Of a stretch of DNA of 64,000 nt, positions 1-34,218 are shown one piece after another; positions within the stretch are counted from its first letter, which is position 1, and each line of letters starts with the position of its first letter. The position numbers and the translations under genes are program-made. Source of the DNA: Rhodobacter sp. NTK016B (GTDB lineage Bacteria; Pseudomonadota; Alphaproteobacteria; Rhodobacterales; Rhodobacteraceae); the NCBI RefSeq assembly GCF_017303295.1, contig NZ_JAFKOK010000015.1:62001-126000 (forward strand), given 5' to 3'. A model generated the notes under the pieces. It did no database searches and was not told the DNA's origin. It saw only the letters and a program-made list of their open reading frames with translations.

Positions 1-553
1 CGATGTCGTAAAGCGCGTCCGAGCGCTCGCGCAGCGTGTCGAAATCCTGCCGCTGCAGGGCCATGTTGAATTCGGCGCCGACGCGGCGGATCTCGTCGGC
101 ATCTTCGGCGTCGAGGCGAAAGAACGCAGCCAGCAACGCGATGGGCAGCGTGAACGAGAAATCGGCGCAGATATCGCCTTCGCCCTGCGCGAGATAAGGG
201 TCGAGATGCTCGGCCACCATGGTGCGTACCACGGGTTTCCATTCGGCGATCCGCGCTGGGCTAAGAAAGCGCAGGATCGCATTGCGGTAGGGGATGTTGC
301 CCGGCGGGTCCAGATGCAGCGGCGGGCGGCGCTGGGTGGTAGCGACGCGGGGGACGACGTTCTGTACCGTGGTGGTGAAGGTCTTCCAGTCCGTCAGCAC
401 GCGGCAGATATCCTCGTGCTTGGTGACCGCCCAGAACCCGCCCATCTCGTCGGCCCAGGCGACCGGGCAGCGGCCACGCAGGTCCTTGAACAGCGCGTGC
501 GGGCTGTCGAAATCCTCGGTTTCGGGGACGATGAAATCGGGGTCGTGGGTCAT
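1..553 (-). CDS. Cytochrome P450, N-terminal part (runs off the left edge)
   Basis: The minus-strand frame opens with MTHDPDFIVPETED and reads without a stop to the window edge, about 184 residues. It has the usual bacterial P450 N-terminal half: a PVAWADEMGGFWAVTKHEDI stretch, and PPLHLDPPG followed by YRNAILRFLSPARI, the C-helix region near the heme. The I-helix, ExxR and heme Cys lie outside the window. The start codon ATG overlaps the TGA stop of the preceding P450 gene (ATGA), so the two P450s are translationally coupled. They resemble each other across the N-terminal region and may have arisen by duplication. Substrate unknown. Confidence 0.85.
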   Translation of the reverse strand, partial: MTHDPDFIVPETEDFDSPHALFKDLRGRCPVAWADEMGGFWAVTKHEDICRVLTDWKTFTTTVQNVVPRVATTQRRPPLHLDPPGNIPYRNAILRFLSPARIAEWKPVVRTMVAEHLDPYLAQGEGDICADFSFTLPIALLAAFFRLDAEDADEIRRVGAEFNMALQRQDFDTLRERSDALYDI

Positions 554-1725
554 GTGAAATCCAGTCCCAGCTTGGTCACGCCATATTCCGTCCAGCGCGC
601 CCATTGCACCGGCTCGCCCAGCCGGAACGGGGGCAGGGCGGCGAGCGTGTCGAGCGCAATGCGCGCCTGCAGTTTCGCCACCGACTGCCCAATGCACATA
701 TGCGGGCCGATCCCGAAGGCGATATGGCGGTTGGGGTTGCGGGTTTCGTCGAACCGCATCGGGTCGTCGAAGACATCCGCGTCACGATTGGCCGACAGGA
801 AATTCAGCGCGACGGGGCAGCCCTCGGGGATCGCGGTGCCGCGCATCTCGGTATCTTGCGTCGCCACGCGGACCAGCGCCTGATTGGGGGCATAGCAGCG
901 CAGCATTTCCTCGATCAGCAGGCGCTGATCCAGCGCGCCTTGCCGCAGCCGGGTTTGCAGGTCATGGTCCTGCGCCAGATGCCACGCCATCGAGCACAGG
1001 AAGTTGCGCGGCACGACATGGCCGCCGATCAGCATGAGCCGCACCATGCCCGCCAGTTCCTCGAAAGAATAGGGCCCGCCCTCGGGCTGATGTGCCATCA
1101 GGCCTGAGACGATGTCGGTTTCGGGATCGCGCGGGTTGGCCATCCGGTCTTCGACCAGCCTGAGCGCGAAGCCGTCGATCTGCCGGCTGATCCCGCCCGC
1201 CGTCGGCAGGTCCTGACGCTGAACGGCGGCGACGTAATCGTGACCGAGCTGGCCCAGCTCTTCGGATTCCGACAGGTCCATTCCGGCAAGGATGCACAAA
1301 GACCCCACGGTGAAGGGCGCGGCGAAGCCTTCGCCGAATTCGGGCGCCGCGCTGGCGGTCAGCGCCTGCGCCAGATCGCCCGCCAGCGCCCGCAGCGGGC
1401 CCTCGATCGCGCGGATGCGGTTTTCCTTGAAGAACAGGTTCAACCCCTTGCGATAGCGCAGCGCCTCGGGCGGGTCCTTTTGCAGGGGCAGCCGGGGCAG
1501 CCCCGCGCGGGGCGAGGTGGGGATGACCGTTTGCTTGGTCGCGGTGAAGGTCTGGTAATCCTTCGACGCCTGCACCACGTCGTCGTATTTCGTCAGCGTG
1601 TAGAACCCGCCCCAGTTCTGCGACCCCGCGACCGGGCATTGTGCGCGCAGCCGCGCCAGCTCGGCCTGCGGATCGGCGAGCGTCTGCGCGCCATGCGGGT
1701 CCCAGTCATGCGGAATGGGGTTCAT
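550..1725 (-). CDS. Cytochrome P450 monooxygenase
   Basis: A full-length soluble bacterial P450 of 391 residues. The heme-binding motif FGIGPHMCIG is present, with its Cys near residue 344, and EEMLR supplies the K-helix ExxR. The I-helix reads LIGGHVVPRN where most P450s have (A/G)GxxT, so the usual acid-alcohol pair for oxygen activation is not recognisable. The start is taken at the ATG overlapping the dctM stop (ATGA); an upstream in-frame ATG at 1752 would overlap dctM by 31 nt. The coupling ties the P450 to the transporter and suggests it acts on the imported compound. No ferredoxin or ferredoxin reductase is encoded nearby, so electrons must come from elsewhere. Confidence 0.92.
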   Translation of the reverse strand: MNPIPHDWDPHGAQTLADPQAELARLRAQCPVAGSQNWGGFYTLTKYDDVVQASKDYQTFTATKQTVIPTSPRAGLPRLPLQKDPPEALRYRKGLNLFFKENRIRAIEGPLRALAGDLAQALTASAAPEFGEGFAAPFTVGSLCILAGMDLSESEELGQLGHDYVAAVQRQDLPTAGGISRQIDGFALRLVEDRMANPRDPETDIVSGLMAHQPEGGPYSFEELAGMVRLMLIGGHVVPRNFLCSMAWHLAQDHDLQTRLRQGALDQRLLIEEMLRCYAPNQALVRVATQDTEMRGTAIPEGCPVALNFLSANRDADVFDDPMRFDETRNPNRHIAFGIGPHMCIGQSVAKLQARIALDTLAALPPFRLGEPVQWARWTEYGVTKLGLDFT

Positions 1726-3002
1726 CGGTCGAAGACCATCGTCGGCAGCCATAGCGAGACCTCCGGGACATAGGTGACAAGGATCAGGAAGCCGAGCATC
1801 GCCGCCACGAAGGGCAGCACGCCGCGGATCGCCTCGGAAAGGGGCGCGCGGGCGATGGACGACAGAACGAAGAGATTGAGCCCGATGGGCGGCGTGAGGA
1901 ACGCGATCTCCATGTTGACGATCAGCAGGATGCCGAAATGGATCGGGTCGATGCCAAGGATCGGCAGCAGCGGCAGCACGATGGGCGTGACGATCAGCAG
2001 CACCGCGACGGCATCAAGGAACATGCCCATAACCAGCATGATGAGGTTGAGCGCGATCAGGAATTGCCACGGCTCCAGGCCTGTCGCGGTCGCCCAGCGG
2101 ACAAGCTGGGTCGGGATGCCCGAGCCGGTGATCCAATGCGCGAACAGCATCGCGAACATGACGATGAAGGTCACGGCCGAGGCCGCCTTCATCGCTTCGG
2201 CGGTCATGCTGAACACGTCTTTCCAGCCGACCTCGCGGTACACCAGCACCGCGATCAGCACCGAGGATATCGCCGCCACACCGGCGGACTCCGTGACCGT
2301 GGTGATGCCCGAATAGATGCCCACGAAGACCGAGATCGGGATGAACAGGGCGGGCAGGGCGCGCAGGTTGCGGCGCATGAATTCCTGCCGCGACAGCCGC
2401 TCGCCCGAGGCATAGCCGCGCTTGCGCGAGATGACCATCACCACCGTCGCCAGAATGACCGCCTGTATCAGGCCCGGCACCACGCCCGCCAGAAACAGGC
2501 GCGGCACGGATTCTTCTGCAATGAGGCCGAACAGGATCATCGACAATGACGGCGGGATCAGCATTCCCAGCGTCCCGGACGCGCCGACCGTGCCGAGCGC
2601 GAAAGGCCGGTGATAGCCGCGTGCGACCATGGCGGGGATCAGGAAGGTGCCCATCGCCATCGCCGTGACCACCGACGAGCCCGAGATCGCCGCGAACAGC
2701 GTCGTTGCCAGCACGCAGACCAGCCCCAGCCCACCGCGGAAATGCCCGACCCAGGCCTCGGCCGCGTCGATAATGATCCGCGCGATGCCGCCCCTTTGCA
2801 TGAAGGTCGCGGCCATCACGAAGAACGGCACGGCGAGAAACGTGGTCGAGTTGATGCCCGATACCGAGGTCATCGCCGCGTCGAAAAGGGGCCGCCCTTC
2901 AAAGGCCAGCATGACCAAAGCGGCGACGCCCAGCGCCACGAAGATCGGTGCGCCCAGAGCCATCAGGGCCAGCATGCCGCCCAGTCCGATTACCGCTTCC
3001 AT
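1722..3002 (-). CDS. dctM: TRAP transporter large permease, DctM
   Basis: This 426-residue, very hydrophobic protein is the ion-coupled permease subunit of a tripartite ATP-independent periplasmic (TRAP) transporter. Landmarks are the N-terminal GLGGMLALMALGAPIFVALG, the segment ISGSSVVTAMAMGTFLIPAM, and ITPPIGLNLFV-like sequence near the C-terminus (FLTPPIGLNLFVLSSI), all typical of DctM. It begins one base after the dctQ stop and overlaps the downstream P450 gene by 4 nt. Together with DctP and DctQ it should import an organic acid or other carboxylate using a sodium or proton gradient. The substrate cannot be told from sequence. Confidence 0.95.
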   Translation of the reverse strand: MEAVIGLGGMLALMALGAPIFVALGVAALVMLAFEGRPLFDAAMTSVSGINSTTFLAVPFFVMAATFMQRGGIARIIIDAAEAWVGHFRGGLGLVCVLATTLFAAISGSSVVTAMAMGTFLIPAMVARGYHRPFALGTVGASGTLGMLIPPSLSMILFGLIAEESVPRLFLAGVVPGLIQAVILATVVMVISRKRGYASGERLSRQEFMRRNLRALPALFIPISVFVGIYSGITTVTESAGVAAISSVLIAVLVYREVGWKDVFSMTAEAMKAASAVTFIVMFAMLFAHWITGSGIPTQLVRWATATGLEPWQFLIALNLIMLVMGMFLDAVAVLLIVTPIVLPLLPILGIDPIHFGILLIVNMEIAFLTPPIGLNLFVLSSIARAPLSEAIRGVLPFVAAMLGFLILVTYVPEVSLWLPTMVFDR

Positions 3003-3003
3003 G

Positions 3004-3534
3004 TCATTCGGCCTTCTTGGTGAATTCCGCCATCTCGGCGGGTTCCGCGCTGGTCGTGATGCCGCGTCCGGCGATGGCCAGCAGGATCATTTTCAGCACC
3101 ATCAGCCCCATGCCGGTGGGCAGGGCGAGGAACAGGAACCATGCCTGCGGCGTGCGCAGGCTCGAAGCCGAGCGGTCGTCGAGCATCCGCGAGAATTCGA
3201 ACGCCTCCCAGCCAAGCCACCCCATGACCGCGCAGAAAACCAGCGTCAGCGCGAAGGTGAAGCCTGCGGCGGCGCGGCGCTTGCGTGCAGACAGGCCGCC
3301 CACGATGATCTCGGTATTGATGTGGCGCCCCTCGGCGGCCAGCGTGGACCCGGCGATGACCGAGGCCCAGACGATGAAGTAAAGCGCCACCTCGTCGGCC
3401 CAGTCGACCGCGTGCTGCGGCGTCAGCACCCGCACCGCCGCACCCCCCATGAAGGTGAACAGCGCGCATAGCACGAGAAGGCCGATCAGCACCGTCTCGA
3501 TCCGAGACCAGATGCGCAGGATCGTGTCGATCAT
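3004..3534 (-). CDS. dctQ: TRAP transporter small permease, DctQ
   Basis: A 176-residue membrane protein with four likely transmembrane segments, the size and pattern of DctQ. The stretch FTFMGGAAVRVLTPQHAVDW followed by ADEVALYFIVWASVIAGSTL is typical of the family, as is the GRHINTEI motif. It bridges the binding protein and the large permease. It sits between dctP and dctM, one base ahead of dctM. The gap to dctP contains a strong hairpin, so its message level may be lower than that of dctP. Confidence 0.93.
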   Translation of the reverse strand: MIDTILRIWSRIETVLIGLLVLCALFTFMGGAAVRVLTPQHAVDWADEVALYFIVWASVIAGSTLAAEGRHINTEIIVGGLSARKRRAAAGFTFALTLVFCAVMGWLGWEAFEFSRMLDDRSASSLRTPQAWFLFLALPTGMGLMVLKMILLAIAGRGITTSAEPAEMAEFTKKAE

Positions 3535-3559
3535 GAACCCGTCCGTCTTGATAGTGCGA

Positions 3560-3577
3560 CGGGGGCTGGCGCCCCCG
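3560..3577 (-). promoter_or_regulatory. Intercistronic hairpin between dctP and dctQ
   Basis: CGGGGGC and GCCCCCG form a perfect 7-bp GC stem closed by a TGGC loop, with no U-run. It lies in the 76-nt gap after dctP and before dctQ. Such a hairpin would protect the 3' end of a dctP transcript or attenuate reading into the permeases, consistent with the usual need for more binding protein than permease. The function is inferred. Confidence 0.55.
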
Positions 3578-3610
3578 CCTGTCTGGTCAATTGCCCTGTC
3601 AGTCGCGCTG

Positions 3611-4630
3611 TCACGCGCCTTGCAGGGCTTCGGCGACGCGGGCCACGAAATCGGCGTTCATGCCCGAGGCCTCGACGATATCGTCCTGCACCGCCAGCAT
3701 CCGCTCGCGCATATCGGCCACCGCCTCGTCCGAGGGATCGGCATAGGTAATGCCGTTTGCCTCGTTCGTTTCGCGCGCATGGGCCAGTTCCTCGGCCGCA
3801 TAGTCGCGCGCCCAGTCCACAGTCTGCGACCACGCGTCGTCGATGATCTGGCGCTGCTCATCGGTCAGCCCGTTCATCACGCGCGCCGACATCAGCGGGA
3901 TATAGACCCCCCAGCCGGCATTGTCGTTGAACGCATAGGCGATGCCCGCTTCCCAGAGCCTGCCGCCCGAGATGGTCAGATCGGTGACCGAGCCCATGCC
4001 TTCGATCTGGCCCTGCGTGAGCTGCAGCACGATCTCGGTGCGCGGCGTGGCGACGCCGTTGATGTTCATCGCGTTCATGATCGCCACCACGACCGGGCTG
4101 GGCGGTGTGGCCAGCGTGCGGCCTTCGAGCGCGGCATAGCTGTCGGCGGGTTCGACCGTGTAAGCGGTGTTGTTGGGGGCGAATTCGAAATGCCCGCCCG
4201 AAGGCACCATGATGCCCCGGCTCTCCAGCATCGCCCAGAGCTCGTCGCCCAGATTGCCATCGAGGATCGCGCGGATATCATCGGCGCTTGCACCGAAGAA
4301 CATCGGCAGGGTGATGACGCTCAGATTGGGCTCAAGGCGGCTCAGCGTGGGCGAGGCCTGTATGGACAGGTCCAGCGCGCCCGAAGCCAGCGCCCGGATC
4401 GCATCGGCCGAGTTATAGAGCTGCCCGGCCGGGAAGATCTCGACCGCGATATCGCCGTCCGAGAGTTCGCCGATCGCGTCGGCCCAATGCTCGGCGGCAA
4501 GGTTGCGCACATGGCCCGGCGGGGTTTCCACCGACAGCCGCAGATTGACCGATTGCGCCGAAACCGCCGTCGCGGCGGCCATTACGGCGCCGATCAGCGC
4601 CGATCCCAGCAGGTTTTTCCTCATCATCAT
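3611..4630 (-). CDS. dctP: TRAP transporter solute-binding protein, DctP family
   Basis: A periplasmic binding protein of 339 residues. It opens with MMMRKNLLGSALIGAVMAA and a signal peptide cut after AVSAQ, then VNLRLSVETPPGHVRN, typical of DctP. The start chosen is the first ATG of the MMM run, 5 nt after a GGAGGAGG ribosome site; an in-frame ATG at 4657 lies upstream of that site. The middle holds QLTQGQIEGMGSVTDL, near the loop that in this family carries the substrate-binding arginine. It is the first TRAP gene after the CoA-transferase (24-nt gap), which suggests that the imported acid is the CoA-transferase substrate. Confidence 0.93.
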   Translation of the reverse strand: MMMRKNLLGSALIGAVMAAATAVSAQSVNLRLSVETPPGHVRNLAAEHWADAIGELSDGDIAVEIFPAGQLYNSADAIRALASGALDLSIQASPTLSRLEPNLSVITLPMFFGASADDIRAILDGNLGDELWAMLESRGIMVPSGGHFEFAPNNTAYTVEPADSYAALEGRTLATPPSPVVVAIMNAMNINGVATPRTEIVLQLTQGQIEGMGSVTDLTISGGRLWEAGIAYAFNDNAGWGVYIPLMSARVMNGLTDEQRQIIDDAWSQTVDWARDYAAEELAHARETNEANGITYADPSDEAVADMRERMLAVQDDIVEASGMNADFVARVAEALQGA

Positions 4631-4653
4631 GTCGCATCCTCCTCCCGATTTGT

Positions 4654-5796
4654 TCACGATGTCGCTTGTCGTCCCGCGCCCAGTTCCGGCGCCGGATACG
4701 CGGTTCCCGGCCCGCCCTCGGCGAACCGGAACCCGGCATTCAAAATGCGCTGCCGCCCGCCGTCGCGCGCGGGCAGGTCCAGAAACAGATCACGCCCGGT
4801 CAGATGCGACATCGCCACGGCATCGGCCAGATCCTGCACCCGTGCGGCGGGCACGCCCCGGGCGCGCAACGCTTCTTCCCAATGCGCGGCGGGGCGGGTC
4901 TGCAGAACCTCGGCCATCTTGTCCGCCATCGCATCGGCATTCTCGGCCCGCGCGCGCCGGTCGGCAAAGCGCGGATCGTCCAGCAGTGGCTCAAGCCCCA
5001 GAACCGCAAGGACCTTGGCCACATGCCCATCCTCGACCGCGCCGATGGTGATCGCGCTGCCCCCGGCACAGGAAAAGGTATCCGAGGTCGGCGCGCGGCT
5101 GAAGCCCCGGTTGCCGGTGCGCACAGGCGCCTCGCCCGCGATCAACAGCGGATTGACCACTGACAGCATCATCACCAGAGCCGCGTCCAGCATCGCCACG
5201 TCGATTTCCTGCCCCGCGCACAGCCCGCGCTCGCGTTGCAACAGCGCGGTCTGGATCGCAAAGGCGGCCAGCAGGCCGGTAAAGGTATCGACCACCGGAA
5301 AGCCCACGCGCATCGCCGGATCCTCGGGCAGGCCCGACAACGACATCAGGCCCGACAGGCTCTGGATGATCTGATCCATCGCTGCGACATCAGCGAGCGG
5401 GCCGGTCTGCCCGAAACCCGAGATCGCGCACCAGATCAGATGCGGATAGCGCGCGCGCATTTCGGCGGCGCCAAGCTCCAGACGTGCCATCACGCCGGGG
5501 CGGAAATTCTCGACCACCACGTCCGAGGCCGCGATGATCGCTTCGGCCTCGGCGCGCCCCGCGGGCGTCTTGAGGTCCAGAACGACCGAGCCCTTGCCCG
5601 CATTGATCCCGGCGAAAGCGGGCGACAGGCCACGCTGGGCAGGGTCGAGCGTGTAATTGCGCAGGTTGTCGCCGCGCGGGGATTCGATCTTGGTGACCTC
5701 GGCGCCGTTGAGCGCGAGGAAATGCGTCGCCAGCGGCCCGGCCACGACATGGCTGAAATCGGCGACCTTGATACCGGTCAATGCGCGCTGCGTCAT
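4654..5796 (-). CDS. Class III (CaiB/BaiF/Frc) acyl-CoA transferase
   Basis: About 380 residues, normal for family III CoA-transferases, which move CoA from a donor thioester to a carboxylic acid. The N-terminus LTGIKVADFSHVVAGPLATH and the segments IESPRGDNLR, NAGKGSVVLDLK and VVVENFRPGVM are family hallmarks. The Asp in PVVDTFTG aligns with the catalytic Asp of formyl-CoA transferase. The second ATG (5796) is chosen because a GGGAGG site lies 6 nt upstream; the first ATG touches that site. It is the first gene after an internal promoter and operator. It would activate the substrate delivered by the adjacent TRAP system. Confidence 0.92.
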   Translation of the reverse strand: MTQRALTGIKVADFSHVVAGPLATHFLALNGAEVTKIESPRGDNLRNYTLDPAQRGLSPAFAGINAGKGSVVLDLKTPAGRAEAEAIIAASDVVVENFRPGVMARLELGAAEMRARYPHLIWCAISGFGQTGPLADVAAMDQIIQSLSGLMSLSGLPEDPAMRVGFPVVDTFTGLLAAFAIQTALLQRERGLCAGQEIDVAMLDAALVMMLSVVNPLLIAGEAPVRTGNRGFSRAPTSDTFSCAGGSAITIGAVEDGHVAKVLAVLGLEPLLDDPRFADRRARAENADAMADKMAEVLQTRPAAHWEEALRARGVPAARVQDLADAVAMSHLTGRDLFLDLPARDGGRQRILNAGFRFAEGGPGTAYPAPELGAGRQATS

Positions 5797-5811
5797 CGAC
5801 ATCCTCCCTGT

Positions 5812-5846
5812 AGTTCATAGAATGAACTAAATTGGAGTTCTGTCAA
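5812..5846 (-). promoter_or_regulatory. Promoter with MarR-type operator ahead of the CoA-transferase gene
   Basis: A perfect palindrome AGTTCAT-AGA-ATGAACT (5812-5828) lies 15 nt before the CoA-transferase start. On the minus strand a consensus -35, TTGACA (5846-5841), precedes it by 12 nt, so the palindrome covers the expected -10. The -35 overlaps the stop codon of the upstream dehydratase gene. A near copy with the same 12-nt spacing occurs at 8023-8057. Binding by the neighbouring MarR protein is inferred. Confidence 0.75.
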
Positions 5847-7117
5847 CGACCTTTTGCGCGATGCCCGTCCGTGACCCGGTCGATCCCGGCCTGAACCCGC
5901 GCACGGGCCTCGGCGCCGTCCCAGCCGCGCGCATCGACCATGTCCGCGTCCAGCATGACCGTCGCCACGCCCGCCTCTTCCAGCGCCCGCGCGATGAAGC
6001 GCGTTCCGTAGCCCGAAGGGCGATCCGCCGAGGGCACGATAATCACCGCAAGGTCGATGCGGTTCGCCTGTGCCTCTTTCACATGCCACGCGCCCGCCCA
6101 GGGCGGTTGGTGCAGATGCTCGTTAATGTCGCTCACCCGCGCGGCCAGCGCCCGCACCGGGTCACCGTGATTCGCGCGGACATAGCCATCGGCGGCGAAG
6201 GGCAGGTACATCGACCATGCGAAGACCGCGCCCTGGTCCTCAAACGCGGTGTAGAAGCCGGTGTCGAACCACAGCCCCGCGCCGATCCACATCATCCGCA
6301 CCCGCTCATCCGGGCAGACCGCCGCACCCGAGGCGATGCGCGCGGCCAGCGCGTCGCGGAACCGTTGTGCATGGGCGAGCGCCCAGTCGCTGCCACGGTG
6401 CCATTGGGGGATCATCACGTTGGGGATCATCTCAGAGATCCGCACGGGCAGGCGCGGCGCCTCGGCGATCATCTGCGCGCATGCCTCGAAAATCCGCTCC
6501 TGCCGGTCGATCCGCTCCATGAGCTGCGCCAGCGCGCCATCTGGCGTGCGGCGGCCCGCCACCTGTTCGGCCATCTCGGTCAGTTCAGCGATCTCGCCCG
6601 CCATCAGATCCAGCCGGTCGGCCCCGACCGTGGCCTCCCAGTCGCGACGCAGTGGTGTCCACCAGTCGGGCTCAGGGTCCGGATGGCCCGGCGCGCTGAG
6701 GATCTTCAGTGGCGCGCCGGTCAGCCGCGCCCATTCGGCAAAGATCAGCGGGTGATCGTCTGCCGAAGCCCGCGCGCAGAGCAGCCCCGGCGCGGGCAGG
6801 CCGCCCCATGGCTGCGTTTCGGGTCGGCCATCGATCGCGGCGAAAAGCGGCAGGGCGGAATACTTGGCCAGCCGGGCGTGGAAGCCCATCGCCTCGGATG
6901 CGTCCAGATGCAGCCCGCTGAGCTTCTTGGCGGCGATGACCGAAGACCACCATTGATTGACCACGACCGGCATGTCGAGCGCGTGGAACACCTCCATCGG
7001 CGTGTCGGCATTGGCAAAGGCATAGGCCTCGCCCCCGGCCAGCCGGGCGCGCAGGCTCTTGGCCCAGTCGCGCTGATAGGCGGCGGCCTCGGCGGTGCAG
7101 GGCAAAGCGGGGGTCAT
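5843..7117 (-). CDS. 2-hydroxyacyl-CoA dehydratase / benzoyl-CoA reductase family protein, larger subunit
   Basis: A 424-residue protein I assign to the HgdB/BcrB superfamily from its fold-typical segments: AFANADTPMEVFHALDMPVV, then NQWWSSVIAAKK, then PAPGLLCARASADDHPLIFAEW, and the C-terminal DLAVIIVPSADRPSGYGTRF. Classical members hold an oxygen-sensitive Fe-S cluster and dehydrate 2-hydroxyacyl-CoA or reduce aryl-CoA with help from an ATP-driven activator. Only four Cys are present (in LPC, LLC, FEAC, AAVC) and no activator gene is near, so this is not a standard member. It overlaps its partner gene by 4 nt (ATGA), implying a heteromeric complex. The real reaction is unknown. Confidence 0.72.
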   Translation of the reverse strand: MTPALPCTAEAAAYQRDWAKSLRARLAGGEAYAFANADTPMEVFHALDMPVVVNQWWSSVIAAKKLSGLHLDASEAMGFHARLAKYSALPLFAAIDGRPETQPWGGLPAPGLLCARASADDHPLIFAEWARLTGAPLKILSAPGHPDPEPDWWTPLRRDWEATVGADRLDLMAGEIAELTEMAEQVAGRRTPDGALAQLMERIDRQERIFEACAQMIAEAPRLPVRISEMIPNVMIPQWHRGSDWALAHAQRFRDALAARIASGAAVCPDERVRMMWIGAGLWFDTGFYTAFEDQGAVFAWSMYLPFAADGYVRANHGDPVRALAARVSDINEHLHQPPWAGAWHVKEAQANRIDLAVIIVPSADRPSGYGTRFIARALEEAGVATVMLDADMVDARGWDGAEARARVQAGIDRVTDGHRAKGR

Positions 7118-8001
7118 GCGGCGGGCTCCGGCAGGGAAAGGGGCAGGTCCGAGGGGGTGGGCCAGCTGGGCACGAAGCCCAGATCGACGAACGCGACCCC
7201 CGCCGCCGCGCAGTCGCGCGCGATCTGCGGCTTGCGCCAGCCATGCAGATCGTCCTGCGGATCGACCTGCCAGACGAGCGTGTCGATCCGGTGGGTTTTC
7301 AGAAGGTCGGGCAGGAGGGGATCCTGCGGCGCGTCCGGCCCCTGCAGATCGAGCACCAGCGCGCCCTGCGCATCAAGCCAGCGATGCAGGCCGTCCCCGC
7401 CCAGCGGCGCGCCCGCCAGCGCCAGCCGGGGGCCGGGTCGTGCCGCTGTGCCGGGGGCCAGATCGTGCGCGGTGCCGGTTTCGCGCGCCGCAAGATGCCG
7501 GGCAAAGGCTTCGGCGCCCGTGATCGCGCCGTCGCGTTGCAAGGTGTGCAAGGCAGCCAGCGGCCCGGCCCGGTCCGCGACAGCGCCCCGTTGCAAGCCC
7601 GTCAGAGCCCGCGTCAACCGGCCGGTCTGTTCGGCGTCGAAGGCTTGCGCGGCGCCGCCTGTGCTGTCCGCGCGCGACCACAGGAAAAGCGGCGGTCCGT
7701 CGGGCAGAAGGCCCAGACGCCGAAGTTCGCTGGCATAGCGGAAGGCGTGCAGCGCACCGGGGCCCGCGCGCCAGACCACGATCAACGCAGCCCCGTCGAA
7801 CGCGCCCCGCTCAAGCCCGAACAGGAAGTTACGCACGAAAGGATCGAGGAACGGCTCAAGCATTGGTGCGACGGCGCTGGGCGAGGGCGGCTCATGTGCC
7901 ATGCGTGTGACATCGCGCAGTGCCAACCCGGCCAGTGCCGGATGGTCCAGCGGCGCGCCATGGCCGAATATAAGGCAATAGGGGACATTCAGATCGGACA
8001 A
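7114..8001 (-). CDS. 2-hydroxyacyl-CoA dehydratase family partner subunit, Cys-poor
   Basis: About 295 residues, assigned mainly by its coupling to the next gene and by weak resemblance to the smaller subunit of the dehydratase/reductase family (AALIVVWRAGPGALHAFRYA, and a conserved C-terminal Rossmann-like half). Only two Cys are seen (PYC and ARDC), so a canonical Cys-ligated cluster is unlikely. The start is taken as TTG at 8001, 7 nt after a GGCGGAG site; an upstream TTG at 8019 lacks such a site. It is the first gene of the leftward locus, 22 nt after the operator palindrome, and diverges from the MarR gene. It could also be a scaffold or inactive paralogue. Confidence 0.6.
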   Translation of the reverse strand: MSDLNVPYCLIFGHGAPLDHPALAGLALRDVTRMAHEPPSPSAVAPMLEPFLDPFVRNFLFGLERGAFDGAALIVVWRAGPGALHAFRYASELRRLGLLPDGPPLFLWSRADSTGGAAQAFDAEQTGRLTRALTGLQRGAVADRAGPLAALHTLQRDGAITGAEAFARHLAARETGTAHDLAPGTAARPGPRLALAGAPLGGDGLHRWLDAQGALVLDLQGPDAPQDPLLPDLLKTHRIDTLVWQVDPQDDLHGWRKPQIARDCAAAGVAFVDLGFVPSWPTPSDLPLSLPEPAA

Positions 8002-8022
8002 ATGTATTCTCCGCCGCAAGGA

Positions 8023-8057
8023 GGTTCATTTTATGAACCAATTAACGCAGCCGTCAA
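8023..8057 (-). promoter_or_regulatory. Promoter with MarR-type operator in the divergent region
   Basis: The perfect palindrome GGTTCAT-TTT-ATGAACC (8023-8039) lies between the dehydratase genes and the MarR gene. On the minus strand TTGACG (8057-8052) lies 12 nt ahead of it, and CATAAA inside it, 16 nt from that hexamer, is a fair -10. A repressor bound here would block the leftward promoter and probably its own. Its half-site GTTCAT matches the site at 5812-5828, with the same distance to the -35. Confidence 0.78.
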
Positions 8058-8100
8058 ACGAAGTCTTGCGCCTTCCAGATGCCGGGGGCAGATTGTGCCG

Positions 8101-8724
8101 ATGAGCAAGGATAGCGTTCCGGCGCCCCATAATCCCGCGCGGGAACAGGTCATCGTTCAGGCGTCTGCGCCGGGCGATACCTCTGTGTCCCCTGACCGTC
8201 TGCCCGAGGGCGCGGCGCCGGGCGACCGGGCGTTCCGGTTCAAATCCGGCTCGGTGATCCGCGCGGGCTGGCTGGCCGAGGATCTGCCGTTTCTCAACCG
8301 CTCGCTGCGCTATCTTCTGCGCGGTCAGGGCGGTGAGCTGCGGCGGGAATTCGCGCTGGAAAGCGGCGATATCGGCGTGCTGGGCGTGCTGCAATCCAAT
8401 CCGGGCGTGACACAGAACGACCTCGCGGCGTCGCTGGTGCTGAAGAAATCGGCGGTGACGCGGGTGGTTCAGCGGCTTGAGGCGCGCGGCCTGCTGACCC
8501 GCGCGCGCAGTTCCGTGGACCGCCGGGCGAATGTGCTCAACCTGACCGAGGCGGGAATGGATCTGTCGATCCGCGTGCGCGAAGCGGCGGCGGCGCGTCA
8601 TGCCGAGTGGTTCACGGGAATTAGCCCCGATGAGCGCGCGGTGTTTTTCGATGTCCTGTTCCGTCTGGTGGACCGTCTGGCTGAAACCCATTCGGGTGAT
8701 GCAACTGACGAGGACGACGATTAA
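8101..8724 (+). CDS. MarR family transcriptional regulator
   Basis: A 207-residue protein with a 55-60 residue polar N-terminal extension, then a MarR winged helix: LGVLQSNPGVTQNDLAASLV, KKSAVTRVVQRLEARGLLTR (recognition helix), then the wing RARSSVDRRANVLNLTEAG. Dimer helices flank it. MarR members near CoA-ligase or CoA-transferase genes are often repressors released by an acid or its CoA thioester. The gene diverges from the dehydratase pair, with a perfect palindrome between them, so autoregulation plus control of the leftward genes is expected. The ATG at 8101 is chosen; longer in-frame starts would include the operator. Confidence 0.9.
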   Translation: MSKDSVPAPHNPAREQVIVQASAPGDTSVSPDRLPEGAAPGDRAFRFKSGSVIRAGWLAEDLPFLNRSLRYLLRGQGGELRREFALESGDIGVLGVLQSNPGVTQNDLAASLVLKKSAVTRVVQRLEARGLLTRARSSVDRRANVLNLTEAGMDLSIRVREAAAARHAEWFTGISPDERAVFFDVLFRLVDRLAETHSGDATDEDDD

Positions 8725-9606: not shown

Positions 9607-12180
9607 TCAGCCGTTTTTCGCGTCGAGGTTCAGCGCGGCCAGCCCTTTCGAGAGCGACTCGATGGTGAAGGGCTTCGCGATCACCGTCGATTGCGGATAG
9701 CGCGCGAGCGAGCCGTCATTCGAGCCATAGCCACTCGCCAGCAGGAAAGGCACCTCCTGCGCGGCAAGGTATTGCGCGACCGGCAGGCTGGTCTCGGCGC
9801 CCAGATTGACGTCCAGCACCGCCAGCGACAGCGTGTTTGCCTCGGCCACGCGCAGCGCTTCGGCCACGGATCCGGCGATGTGAACCGTCTGCACGCCAAG
9901 CGTTTCGAGAATGTCGGCGGCATCCATGGCGATGATCATGTTGTCCTCGACCACCATCGCCACGCCCGACAGCGCGGGCGGTGTGAGCAGTTCTGCCGGG
10001 GCTGAGGTCGCGACCTCTGGGCTTTCGGGCAGAAGGGTGACGAACCGCTCGGGGATCGAAAAGATGGCCTCGAACCCGGTAACCGCGAAGCGGGTCTCGG
10101 CGGTGCCTTTCAGCTCGAAGGGAATCGAGCGTTCGATGATCGTCGTGCCGAACCCCCGCCGCTCGGGCGCGCGCACGGCAGGGCCGCCGGTTTCCGACCA
10201 GTGAAGCTGCGTGCGGCCATCGGGCAGCTGGGCGATGTCGAGCGACACGCGGCCCGACGGCACCGACAGCGCGCCGTATTTCACAGAGTTCGTCACCAGT
10301 TCGTGGAACACCAGCGCCACGCTGCTGAACGCTTCGGGCGCCAGCAGGATGCGCGGGCCGCTCACGATGACGCGATCATGCTCGCCTGAGATATAGGCGT
10401 CCAGTTCCTTGGTCAGCAGATCGTGGAATGCCACGGGCGACCATTCGGTGCGGGTCAACTGATCATGCGCCTGAGCCAGCGCATGGATGCGCCCGTCGAT
10501 GGCGGCGGTGAAATCCTCCATCGAGCTGGCGGTGCGGCGCGACTGGCTGACCAGCGACCGGATCAGGCCCAGCACGTTGCGCACCCGGTGATTAAGTTCG
10601 GCAATCAGCAATTCCTGCTGATCCTGCGCGCGCTTGCGCTCGGCGTTCACTTCGTCCGAGAGCTTCAGCACGACTTCAAGCAGGGTGACACGGATCGCCT
10701 CGGCGGCGCGAAGGGCGGTGACCGACCATTGTTCGGATCGGTTGCCGACATCCTGTTTCCACGTCTCGAAGCTCTTGCGCGGGGTCAGGCGCGATCCGTT
10801 GGGGCCGACTTCGACCGCCTTTTCCGGATTGCCCGCCCATTTCACCTGCCGCACCACTTCCGAGCGGAACAGCACGATGTAATCGCGTGGCGTGCGCGAG
10901 ATCGGGATCGCAAGGATCCCCGCTGCGACATCGGCATGCTCGGCCATCGAGGGCAGGCGCGCGACAAGGTTGTCAGTGGCGTAGACCCGGCTGGCCGCGG
11001 CGGTGTTGAGGAACCGCGCGATGCCTTCGAACTGCGATTGCGTCGGCACCGCGCCGCGCGTCAGATAGGTGCCGTCCGAATAGACCGCGATCCCGTCATA
11101 GCCCACGACCTTGGCGATTTCCTCGGCGATGGTGGGAAAGACCTGCTCCAGCCGTTCGCCCGAACTCAGCCGGACCATCAGCCGGTCATGCAGGCGCTGG
11201 GCGCGGCCCGATGCGTCCGACAACGCGCGCGCTTCTTGCCGTTCGATCTCATAGGCGAAGAACTGGGCCAGAAGCTCGACAGCCGTGCGGCGCTGGTAAT
11301 CGACATGGATCGGCGTGCGGTGGTGGCAGGCGAACAGGCCCCACAATTCGCCCTTTTGCAGGATCGACACCGACATCGAACCGCGCACATTCATATTGCG
11401 CAAATATTCCAGATGGATAGGCGAGACCGCGCGGCTGATCGACATCGACAGGTCGAGAGGCGTGCCTTCGGGGCTGACCTGCGGCACGATCGGCGAGACA
11501 GTATCGTCCACATCCATGATCAGCCGGATCAGGTTGCGCTTGTAAAGCTCGCGCGCCTGCCGGGGGATGTCCGAGGCCGGGAAATGCAGGCCCAGATAGG
11601 ATTCGGTATCGGCCTCGTCGCGGGCCTCGGCGATCACCGTGCCGTCGCCTTCGGGGCCAAAGCGATAGACCTTCACCCGGTCAAATCCCGTCAGCGCGCG
11701 CAATTGCTCGGCTGCGGCCTGCGCGGCGCTGAGCGTGTCGGGCTGGTTCGACACCTTGCGCAGCATGGCCGTGACCTGCGCCATCTCGTCATGGCCGTAT
11801 TCGCGTTCGGTCGGCTCGAATTCGAAGATGAAGCTGTTATCGGTCATGTGGCTGGCGATATCGAAATGCCGGCCATCGCCCAGCAGATCGATGCCAAAGG
11901 CGCGCACCACCGAGTTCTCGTGCGTGGCGGTGCCGATCATCGCGCTCAGCCGTTGCATGATGTCGCGCGGAAGCCGGTCGCCGAGGGGCCTGCCGATCAG
12001 ATCCTCGCCTTCGAGCCCCAGAATCCGGTCCACATTGGTCGAGGCATGCTGCACGATCCAGTCGGCCGAAATCGCGATCAGCGCGCCGAAGCTCTGGACA
12101 TTGCCCAGCAAGTGGATCGGCTCGCGGTCGCAATTGGTCAGGTCGACGGCGGTATCGGTGGAAATGAACCTCTCTGCCAT
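9607..12180 (-). CDS. bphP: Bacteriophytochrome HWE histidine kinase with C-terminal receiver
   Basis: An 857-residue red/far-red photoreceptor. Cys17 (TNCDREPIHLLGNVQSFG) is the expected biliverdin attachment site. The domain order is PAS (20-120), GAF with PASDIP near 201-206, PHY with PRKSF near 467-471, HWE kinase with ELNHRVRN (His531) and WSE at 661-663, and a receiver (740-855) with Asp790 as the likely phosphorylation site. HWE kinases with a fused receiver often act in stress or light responses in alphaproteobacteria. The gene starts one base after the heme oxygenase stop, so chromophore and apoprotein are made together. Bathy-type or canonical photochemistry cannot be told here. Confidence 0.96.
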   Translation of the reverse strand: MAERFISTDTAVDLTNCDREPIHLLGNVQSFGALIAISADWIVQHASTNVDRILGLEGEDLIGRPLGDRLPRDIMQRLSAMIGTATHENSVVRAFGIDLLGDGRHFDIASHMTDNSFIFEFEPTEREYGHDEMAQVTAMLRKVSNQPDTLSAAQAAAEQLRALTGFDRVKVYRFGPEGDGTVIAEARDEADTESYLGLHFPASDIPRQARELYKRNLIRLIMDVDDTVSPIVPQVSPEGTPLDLSMSISRAVSPIHLEYLRNMNVRGSMSVSILQKGELWGLFACHHRTPIHVDYQRRTAVELLAQFFAYEIERQEARALSDASGRAQRLHDRLMVRLSSGERLEQVFPTIAEEIAKVVGYDGIAVYSDGTYLTRGAVPTQSQFEGIARFLNTAAASRVYATDNLVARLPSMAEHADVAAGILAIPISRTPRDYIVLFRSEVVRQVKWAGNPEKAVEVGPNGSRLTPRKSFETWKQDVGNRSEQWSVTALRAAEAIRVTLLEVVLKLSDEVNAERKRAQDQQELLIAELNHRVRNVLGLIRSLVSQSRRTASSMEDFTAAIDGRIHALAQAHDQLTRTEWSPVAFHDLLTKELDAYISGEHDRVIVSGPRILLAPEAFSSVALVFHELVTNSVKYGALSVPSGRVSLDIAQLPDGRTQLHWSETGGPAVRAPERRGFGTTIIERSIPFELKGTAETRFAVTGFEAIFSIPERFVTLLPESPEVATSAPAELLTPPALSGVAMVVEDNMIIAMDAADILETLGVQTVHIAGSVAEALRVAEANTLSLAVLDVNLGAETSLPVAQYLAAQEVPFLLASGYGSNDGSLARYPQSTVIAKPFTIESLSKGLAALNLDAKNG

Positions 12181-12181
12181 G

Positions 12182-12763
12182 TCAGCTCGCCCGCGCCAGC
12201 GGGGACGCGTGCCCGTCCAGCATCAGGATGCTGTCTGCAGCGGCAGTGAAGATGGCAAAGGCGCGGTTGGCATCCGACAGGATGCGTTGCGCTTCGGGTG
12301 TGGTGCTGTCCATGGCCCCCATTCGGGCGCAGAACGCGCGCCACGCCGTCATGTCGGGGTCTTGTCCGAAATAGCCGGTCTGCTGATCGTCAGGCAGGCC
12401 CCGGCGCATCATCTCGGTCCCCATCTGCGAGCCGAGGACCAGATACGCAACCGCGTCGGGATGCAGAAAAGGCGCGGGCAAGGGGGCGTCGGCGGGCACA
12501 TTCGCCAGCGCCTCGTCCAGCGTGGCCATGATGCGGTGCAGGCTGGGCGTCGCCTCAGAGGCGTTGCCGTCGCAGGCGCGTCCCAGCGTGGCGAAACCGA
12601 GGCGGTGAACGCGGCAAAACGCTTTGCGACGTTCAGCGATCAGCAGGTTCAGGGGAGAGATCCGGTTGTCCAGGGCCTCATGGGCAGGCCGGGTCTGGGA
12701 TCGGAGGGCGGCACGCAGCGTCGGCGCTGCAGCATCCGCCGGTGCGGTAATAGGATCGAGCAA
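12182..12763 (-). CDS. bphO: Heme oxygenase making biliverdin for the phytochrome
   Basis: A 193-residue protein of bacterial heme-oxygenase type. LRSQTRPAHEALDNR holds the probable proximal His, and LVLGSQMGTEMMRRG is the glycine-containing distal helix. Such enzymes open heme to biliverdin IXalpha, the chromophore of bacteriophytochromes, and the bphP gene follows with a 1-nt gap. The frame has no upstream ATG; TTG at 12763 is the best start, with only a weak ribosome site. A short start of this kind may keep expression low. Confidence 0.92.
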   Translation of the reverse strand: MLDPITAPADAAAPTLRAALRSQTRPAHEALDNRISPLNLLIAERRKAFCRVHRLGFATLGRACDGNASEATPSLHRIMATLDEALANVPADAPLPAPFLHPDAVAYLVLGSQMGTEMMRRGLPDDQQTGYFGQDPDMTAWRAFCARMGAMDSTTPEAQRILSDANRAFAIFTAAADSILMLDGHASPLARAS

Positions 12764-33030: not shown

Positions 33031-34218
33031 ATGGTGGTTACGGCCAGGGAGCTGCCGGTGATCGACGATGTGGCGCTGGGCGCGATGTTCGACGACCCCT
33101 ATCCGATCTACGAGCGCCTGCGGCGCGAGGCCCCGGTCGCGTGGATCAAGCCCGCCAACATCGCGCTGATCACCACCTTTGACGACATCATCGCCATCGA
33201 GAAGGACGACATCACCTTTCCCGCCAACGACCCGCGCAGCCTGATGTTCCGGTCGATGGGGCACACGCTGATGCGCCGCGACGGCGATGACCACATGACC
33301 GAGCGCCGCGCGCTGGTGAAAACCTTCAGCCCGCCGATGATCAAAAGCCACTGGGCGCCGAAATTCCAGCTCTTCGTCGATGAACAGATCGCGCATCTGC
33401 GCACCAAGAATGGCGGCGATCTGTTCCGCGACTATTGCGCCCCCATTGCCAGCCGCGCGCTGGCCGAGGTGATCGGTATCCCTGAAGTGTCGTGGCAGGA
33501 CATGCTGTGGTGGAGTCAGGCGCTGATCGACGCCACCGGCAATTATGCCGATCTGCCCGAACCGTGGGAGCGCTGCGCACGCGCCAATGAGGGGATTGAT
33601 GCGGCCATCGACCACCATGCCGAATACTGGCGGCGTGAGCCCAACCCCTCGGCCCTTTCGGCGATGCTGCAGGCGGGGTTCCCGATGGAAAAGATCCGCG
33701 CCAATATCAAGGTGGCCATCGGCGGCGGCATGAACGAGCCGCGCGACGCCATCGGCACGCTGACCGTGGCATTGTTGGAAAACCGCGATCAGCTGGCGGC
33801 ATGGCGGGCCGATCCGGGGCTTCGGCGCAAGGCATTCGAGGAAGCGGTGCGCTGGGTCGCGCCCATCGGCATGTATCCCCGCAAGGTGGCGCGCGATACG
33901 GTTCTGTCGGATACGCTGCTGCCTGCGGGTACGGCGATCGGCCTCGTGGCCGGGTCGGCCTGCCGCGATGAAAGCAAGTTCGGTCCCGGCGCGGGCCGCT
34001 ACGACCTGCATCGCCCGCAGGCGCCGCATCTGGCCTTCGGCTCGGGTCCGCATTTCTGCCTCGGGGCGTGGATGGCGCGGATGCTGGTGGGAGATATGGC
34101 GGTACCGGCGTTGTTCGAAAACCTGCCCAACCTGCGGCTCGACCCCGACCACCCGCCGCGCTGGGGCGGCTGGGTGTTCCGCGGGCCGCTATCGGTCCCC
34201 GCTCTGTGGGAGGCGTAA
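33031..34218 (+). CDS. Cytochrome P450 monooxygenase
   Basis: A 395-residue soluble P450. The start ATG at 33031 follows GGGAGG by 5 nt. Heme site FGSGPHFCLG has its Cys near residue 343; ExxR is EEAVR. The I-helix reads AIGGGMNEPRDAIG and lacks the usual acid-Thr pair; it is similar to LIGGHVVPRN of the P450 at 550-1725. The 3' end overlaps the convergent cupin gene by 30 nt. No redox partner is near. Its substrate is unknown; control by the divergent LysR is likely. Confidence 0.93.
   Translation: MVVTARELPVIDDVALGAMFDDPYPIYERLRREAPVAWIKPANIALITTFDDIIAIEKDDITFPANDPRSLMFRSMGHTLMRRDGDDHMTERRALVKTFSPPMIKSHWAPKFQLFVDEQIAHLRTKNGGDLFRDYCAPIASRALAEVIGIPEVSWQDMLWWSQALIDATGNYADLPEPWERCARANEGIDAAIDHHAEYWRREPNPSALSAMLQAGFPMEKIRANIKVAIGGGMNEPRDAIGTLTVALLENRDQLAAWRADPGLRRKAFEEAVRWVAPIGMYPRKVARDTVLSDTLLPAGTAIGLVAGSACRDESKFGPGAGRYDLHRPQAPHLAFGSGPHFCLGAWMARMLVGDMAVPALFENLPNLRLDPDHPPRWGGWVFRGPLSVPALWEA

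Follow-up and report, generated by a model that had tools for sequence, protein, structure and literature searches.

The stretch of Rhodobacter sp. NTK016B DNA analysed here (the window: 64,000 nucleotides, positions 62001-126000 of contig C6 in a 4.84 Mb genome) begins with an operon that brings together a tripartite ATP-independent periplasmic (TRAP) importer, a coenzyme A (CoA) transferase, two cytochrome P450s and a two-subunit protein, here called alpha and beta, that resembles benzoyl-CoA reductase and 2-hydroxyacyl-CoA dehydratase. Read from right to left along the minus strand, the genes encode alpha (7114..8001), beta (5843..7117), a family III, CaiB-like CoA-transferase (4654..5802), the TRAP solute-binding protein DctP (3611..4657), the small and large TRAP permeases DctQ (3004..3534) and DctM (1722..3002), P450-1 (550..1725) and P450-2, whose N-terminal part occupies 1..553 and whose whole gene (contig C6 61375-62553) runs past the left window edge; a MarR-family regulator (8101..8724, plus strand, ATG at 8101) is divergent from the operon. 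A Pfam search matched DctP (PF03480, 3.6e-34), DctQ (PF04290, 4.4e-18) and DctM (PF06808, 1e-108), which together make a complete TRAP transporter, as well as the CoA-transferase (PF02515, 9.9e-106, the CoA_transf_3 domain covering residues 8-376, its full length), both P450s (PF00067, 9.4e-22 for P450-1), the regulator (PF12802/PF01047) and the second dehydratase-like gene, beta (HGD-D, PF06050, 1.5e-31); alpha alone has no Pfam or NCBIfam match. The whole genome holds one HGD-D match and nine CoA-transferase III matches; with relatives keeping the set, the association goes beyond chance. The operon is confirmed as real, but the 4-nt overlaps by which the first-pass annotation had tied its genes together hold at only some junctions: ATGA overlaps join alpha to beta (7114-7117), DctM to P450-1 (1722-1725) and P450-1 to P450-2 (550-553), whereas beta and the CoA-transferase are separated by 40 nt, DctP and DctQ by 76 nt and DctQ and DctM by 1 nt. 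The overlap of the CoA-transferase with DctP hinges on a GTG start at 4657; ATG codons lie 27-33 nt downstream, and the true DctP start may be one of these (4630-4624). Alpha is likelier to start at the TTG at 8001, behind GGAG, than at 8019, and the CoA-transferase perhaps starts at 5796, where GGGAGG is better spaced.

Beyond the window the unit is rare yet widely scattered. Beta homologues occur in only 6 of 100 genomes (the window's own and 99 relatives) and in 4 of 387 alphaproteobacterial genomes (again including the window's own), and the closest named relative at the locus is Pararhodobacter marinus, with 96% identity in beta. The GTDB species collection was scanned with two peptide patterns, by which distant members may be missed, and gave 98 confirmed matches; among the best 80, the hosts are Rhodobacterales, Rhizobiales, sphingomonads, Caulobacterales, Steroidobacteraceae, a Lysobacteraceae metagenome-assembled genome (MAG), betaproteobacteria and one Bacteroidota MAG. 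Neighbourhoods were counted by a six-frame hidden Markov model scan. Of the 80 loci it covered the 68 flanked by 8.5 kb or more on each side, the 12 short-flank loci being excluded; these figures replace those of a superseded gene-clustering count (alpha 45/68, P450 18/68). Alpha, beta and the CoA-transferase are found in 68/68 loci, DctM in 64 and a P450 in 19. The alpha-beta pair, the family III CoA-transferase and the TRAP transporter are a conserved unit, and the P450s are accessory to it. In the co-occurrence check that had been set beforehand as a possible refutation of a shared locus, the importer, the CoA-transferase and the pair thus stay together in 64/68 loci, whereas the P450s are optional.

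The loci fall into two cluster types with 34 full-flank loci each, and the window belongs to type B. Type B loci carry MarR (32), P450 (15) and CapA (4) genes and neither TonB receptors nor CocE/esterase genes (0 each); type A loci carry CapA (34), CocE/esterase (34), TonB receptor (30) and P450 (4) genes. In a distant alphaproteobacterium (L124, 6757-9123, minus strand) alpha and beta form a single protein of 788 residues, which is without cluster cysteines and adjoins four CoA-transferases and TRAP genes; because they are fused there, the two subunits probably work as one machine. The ratios of nonsynonymous to synonymous substitution rates (dN/dS) indicate purifying selection on alpha (0.21-0.36), beta (0.09-0.18; the L062 slice extended past a stop codon, which was skipped), the CoA-transferase (0.13-0.21) and P450-1 (0.08-0.15).

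Several neighbours of the unit were seen along the way. A CapA-family protein lies inside type A operons (e.g., L101 10132-11235, L088 4114-5229); its reading as a capsule gene is doubtful, the only NCBIfam match being the MslH epimerase model at 107.6 of 700 bits, well below the cut-off, and the protein may rather be a metal-dependent epimerase. A gene pair, c17 (with CxxCH heme motifs) and c18 (257-361 residues), recurs beside type A clusters (L059, L069, L070, L077, L080, L096, L097, L100), with no NCBIfam match for either of the two proteins tested. MmgE/PrpD-family genes stand near the unit in both types (L031, L049, L097, L101, L102, L103), which may point to a hydroxy- or polycarboxylic acid. 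The contig binned as Bacteroidota (L059, a Saprospiraceae MAG) carries a type A-like cluster and reflects either inter-phylum transfer or a binning error.

Two palindromes punctuate the operon. The first putative MarR operator, GGTTCAT-TTT-ATGAACC with perfect 7-bp arms (8023..8039), lies between MarR and alpha; the second, TAGTTCAT-AGA-ATGAACTA with perfect 8-bp arms (5811..5829), lies in the gap between beta and the CoA-transferase. Allowing up to two mismatches, the window contains two matches against 0.10 expected. The pattern GTTCATNNNATGAAC occurs exactly at just two places in the 4.84 Mb, both in the operon, whereas the reversed control pattern does not occur; three further genomic places match with one mismatch. 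With the exact core confined to the operon, no exact match indicates a regulon beyond it. A looser core, GTTCA-N5-TGAAC, is present at 48 sites spread over 24 of the 39 type B loci; its usual places are ahead of the divergent CoA-transferase, in the gap from MarR to alpha, and behind beta. The 42 type A loci have none, and ten shuffled versions of the type B set, permuted base by base, have 0-3. Judging by position and shape, the palindromes are probably operators of the divergent MarR protein. Pfam content, the conserved gene set and these operators agree with the earlier suggestion of one regulated catabolic locus. A side observation comes from L025 (11291-17292), in which the TRAP genes and both P450s form an opposite-strand block beside the pair with a MarR gene and an operator of its own, as if the module moves as one piece.

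The family assignment of the pair, first made by eye, was borne out by both profiles and predicted models. Alpha together with 28 relatives matches BzdN (4.3e-26) and HadC (9.1e-18) in profile comparison, and its predicted model (predicted local distance difference test, pLDDT, 91.6) finds BzdN in a Foldseek search (8e-11). Beta matches the profiles of MbdO (1.8e-23), BzdO (9.5e-19) and HadB (1.1e-16), and its model (pLDDT 90.4) matches MbdO (4.9e-17, template modelling score 0.84). On these models the pair shares its fold and two-subunit make-up with benzoyl-CoA reductase and 2-hydroxyacyl-CoA dehydratase.

The residues that serve electron transfer in those enzymes are gone from the window pair. 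According to excerpts of PMC11971306, the cluster ligands of BzdO are Cys95, Cys128 and Cys380, with Glu65 and His131 beside the cluster. The three cysteines align with A84, A119 and D365 of the window beta. We compared 84 beta rows from 82 genomes, two being counted twice (L016/L021, L017/L062), of which 42 are type A and 42 type B. In type B, cysteine occurs at positions 84, 87, 119 and 121 in 0/42 rows and D365 is invariant (42/42); position 365 is Asn in 35/42 type A rows. In the alignments with HadB and MbdO, the place of the catalytic Glu65 is taken by Gln55 (the BzdO alignment begins after this residue), and Gln is found in all 83 rows with a letter at that position. All three ligand cysteines are present in five canonical homologues, which come from two MAGs with a type A pair as well; four of the five have a P-E motif at the Gln55 position, the fifth having a gap. 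In alpha, positions 53, 80 and 249, which align with the HadC cluster cysteines, are Cys in 0/29 rows; there is no conserved cysteine, and no column has Cys in more than 9/29 rows. The ATP-driven activator on which the canonical enzymes depend was sought with TIGR00241 in 32 distinct genomes (sets of 15 and 24, with seven in both): the window's genome has no match, 29/32 have none over the cut-off, and two of the three genomes that do are the MAGs with canonical pairs. Given the missing ligands and activator, we reject an anaerobic radical dehydratase or reductase as such for the window pair. The first-pass annotation had been right about the family but incomplete in presenting an anaerobic enzyme beside oxygen-requiring P450s as a puzzle, which largely dissolves because the window pair is without cluster cysteines and has Gln aligned with the catalytic Glu, and most of the genomes tested lack an activator.

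The pair could instead still hold a metal or an iron-sulfur cluster through other residues and be an oxygen-sensitive enzyme of micro-oxic niches. The type A beta rows, all 42 of which carry the four-cysteine set C84-x2-C87/C119-x-C121, would be in keeping with this, as would C114, present in 42/42 type B rows, and the activator of three genomes; with the four cysteines in no type B row, cysteines so sparse in the alpha columns and the activator missing from 29/32 genomes, we consider it very unlikely.

What the pair has kept is its channel. The most conserved beta motifs, QWHRG, WIGAGLW and NQWW, align with or adjoin the helices and loop that form the CoA/acyl channel of BzdO in the excerpts of its published description, and because of this match thioester binding has likely been retained while the electron supply has been lost. 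The invariant polar or charged channel residues (A5) are D38, N54, Q55, K64, R116, D120, H240, R241, E293, N332, E333 and H336. H122 aligns with the active-site His131 of BzdO (Ala in HadB) and is present in 37/42 type B and 0/42 type A rows. These residues bear on whether the pair catalyses anything at all: having lost the known cofactors and the catalytic Glu, and being accompanied by a CoA-transferase in every full-flank locus, it might be a non-catalytic, CoA-thioester-binding partner (chaperone, sensor or carrier) of that transferase. Invariant polar and charged residues lining the inherited channel, the low dN/dS of beta and the retention of H122 in type B argue for catalysis, and we rate a mere binding partner as rather improbable.

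Both P450s contain the P450 domain with its ExxR and heme-Cys motifs. The acid-alcohol pair of the P450 I helix provides the usual oxygen-activation residues; it is absent from 12/12 P450-1 rows and 22/22 P450-2 rows (34 in total), and N-E-T-T of CYP125 aligns with H-V-V-P in P450-1. Two other P450s from the same search differ at this site (AGHGTTTN, AGIESLSG), and one fragment could not be judged. To go by these residues, the unit-linked P450s may activate oxygen in an unusual way or may not be plain hydroxylases. The first-pass working idea that the acid becomes a CoA thioester before a P450 oxidises it is a possible one, set beside the absence of this pair in both P450 families. Their nearest solved relatives, the steroid enzymes CYP125 and CYP142, are too distant to be used for naming a substrate.

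The P450s might also be unrelated neighbours, with only the importer, the CoA-transferase and the pair belonging together. Their presence within 8.5 kb in only 19/68 loci speaks for this, as do the at least nine changes that P450 neighbourhood requires on the beta tree, a quick tree whose outgroup and fused row sit on long branches and whose root is not to be trusted. That number is nevertheless lower than in any of 500 shuffles, and a P450 accompanies the unit in 10/10 rows of the window's clade. Homologues of P450-2 with 40-57% identity adjoin the unit in Devosia, Oricola, Pseudooceanicola and Rhodobacterales HKCCE4037, and likewise in Croceicoccus, Novosphingobium EMRT-2, Hyphomonadaceae and Steroidobacteraceae, so that this P450 family accompanies the unit even in distant clades, both elsewhere in type B and in type A loci. 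On the same strand, a gene of this family follows DctM in L037 and L046 and the operator-bearing CoA-transferase in L038 and L048, and in the window 4-nt overlaps join the P450s to the operon. A chance neighbourhood accordingly seems improbable to us, if marginally less so than a cluster held by other residues.

Downstream of P450-2, outside the window, lie two FAD monooxygenases (C6 60079-61344 and 58607-59932) and genes of resistance-nodulation-division (RND) efflux type, the latter named by eye. On the other side of the operon and adjoining it, positions 9607-12763 (minus strand) encode what by eye appear to be a sensor protein of 857 aa resembling phytochromes and a neighbour the size of a heme oxygenase. 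A further P450 match lies away from the operon at about 33829-34083 (plus strand; contig C6 95829-96083).

Several routes to a substrate were tried and set aside. The nearest solved TRAP binding proteins to DctP are distant matches with generic names, and the CoA-transferase has no equivalog over the cut-off, the best being of succinate-glutarate type at 213 of 750 bits. The most specific proposal makes the pair a functional equivalent of (R)-phenyllactoyl-CoA dehydratase that feeds a hydroxycinnamoyl-CoA hydratase/lyase: an aromatic ester would be hydrolysed to an aryl-lactate, activated by the CoA-transferase and converted by the pair to hydroxycinnamoyl-CoA. In fld and had operons a family III CoA-transferase lies next to an HGD-type pair, a layout that counts in favour of such a route. 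A hydroxycinnamoyl-CoA hydratase/lyase gene adjoins the unit in L058 and L102; an aldehyde dehydrogenase 72-80% identical to that of L102 stands beside it in L058, L070, L073, L080, L083 and L084; Novosphingobium ES2-1 has a gene of the tannase/feruloyl-esterase family near it; and the window's own genome has two hydratase/lyase genes over the cut-off. The known dehydratases, however, require the cluster and the activator that are missing here, and the hydratase/lyase exceeds the cut-off in only 10/24 genomes (type A 8/11, type B 2/13), which makes a ferulate-type product a weak candidate for type B. We think this route unlikely, if the least so of the four alternatives weighed; a hydroxycinnamate link might fit some type A loci, and does not fit most type B genomes.

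We give an even chance to the reading in which the locus is a dedicated acid-catabolic operon whose pair probably acts redox-neutrally on a CoA thioester, with the P450s and flavin monooxygenases as accessories. The MarR protein would keep the operon repressed from the two palindromes and release it once a metabolite of the pathway appears; the TRAP system would import an organic acid; and the family III CoA-transferase would convert it to its CoA thioester, a probable step that was suspected from the outset. Alpha-beta would bind this thioester in the channel that it inherited along with the fold of benzoyl-CoA reductase and 2-hydroxyacyl-CoA dehydratase, and would use acid/base chemistry for an elimination, an addition or a lyase reaction at the thioester carbons or adjacent to them. 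With no cluster cysteines left, Gln in line with the catalytic Glu and no activator found in the genome, a redox-neutral step is the most likely one. The P450s, and in Pararhodobacter also flavin monooxygenases, would perform accessory oxidations, either to broaden the range of acids used or to act on the product. We infer the direction of the pathway, the type of reaction, the role of the P450s and the order of steps from gene content and sequence.

A number of observations weigh against this reading. Family III CoA-transferases and P450s both belong to widespread families, gene content is what the proposed order of steps is read from, and the whole account is built on sequence and predicted structure. 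The four-cysteine set of type A beta means that some type A members may bind a metal or a cluster, three of the 32 genomes do hold an activator gene, and 15/39 type B loci are without an exact operator core. Alpha is less constrained than beta by dN/dS; its frame is broken in a Pararhodobacter relative (L018) and it is short (175 residues) in one MAG (L019/L053), beta being intact in both. More tentatively, and with clearly less confidence than in the acid-catabolic operon, we suggest that a branch of the superfamily shed its clusters and activator and now catalyses a reaction of CoA thioesters that is redox-neutral and tolerates oxygen, such as a dehydration or the cleavage of a bond at C2/C3, within a scattered, hitherto undescribed aerobic pathway that includes P450s lacking the usual oxygen-activation residues.

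To our knowledge, the described members of the superfamily carry iron-sulfur clusters and belong to anoxic habitats. The claim that no described pathway has this gene set still stands: the open-licence PMC literature yielded nothing on point for such dehydratases in connection with TRAP transporters, P450s, Rhodobacteraceae, Sphingomonas or Novosphingobium. If our proposal is true, the cluster-free branch illustrates the passage of such an enzyme to aerobic life and makes it easy to test which reactions the bare protein scaffold supports, with a ready evolutionary series running from the three-Cys site of canonical members to the four-Cys set of type A and none in type B. Through the operators the inducer could be found quickly and, from it, perhaps the substrate, and the name "2-hydroxyacyl-CoA dehydratase family protein" in sphingomonad records should not be taken as evidence for an anaerobic radical enzyme.

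Among known systems, the class I benzoyl-CoA reductases BzdNO and MbdNO are alike in both subunits by profile and fold, in having two paralogous subunits and in the aligned CoA-channel segments; they differ in that here Cys95, Cys128, Cys380 and the catalytic Glu of BzdO are replaced, the BzdN-type cluster cysteines are not conserved and there is no activator. HadBC, FldBC and HgdAB share the fold and, with HadA and FldA, the neighbouring family III CoA-transferase, whereas the present pair has no cluster ligands and no HadI/FldI-type activator, and its operon includes a TRAP importer, MarR and P450s in hosts that are presumably aerobic. The double-cubane cluster protein (DCCP; 6eno, 7yyl), which works with an ATPase of its own, belongs to the same superfamily and is a weaker match. 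Excerpts of PMC11971306 describe its [8Fe-9S] cluster; neither ligands for such a cluster nor the ATPase were found here. Acid-uptake operons that pair TRAP with a family III CoA-transferase are alike in the three TRAP components and the CaiB-like transferase, and differ from this one, in which the transferase has no equivalog over the cut-off and DctP only distant, generically named solved matches. By fold and layout the pair stands, on present sequence comparison, beside BzdNO, HadABC and FldABC; judged on cluster ligands and activator it falls outside that functional family, which suggests a superfamily rebuilt here for a different, oxygen-compatible chemistry.

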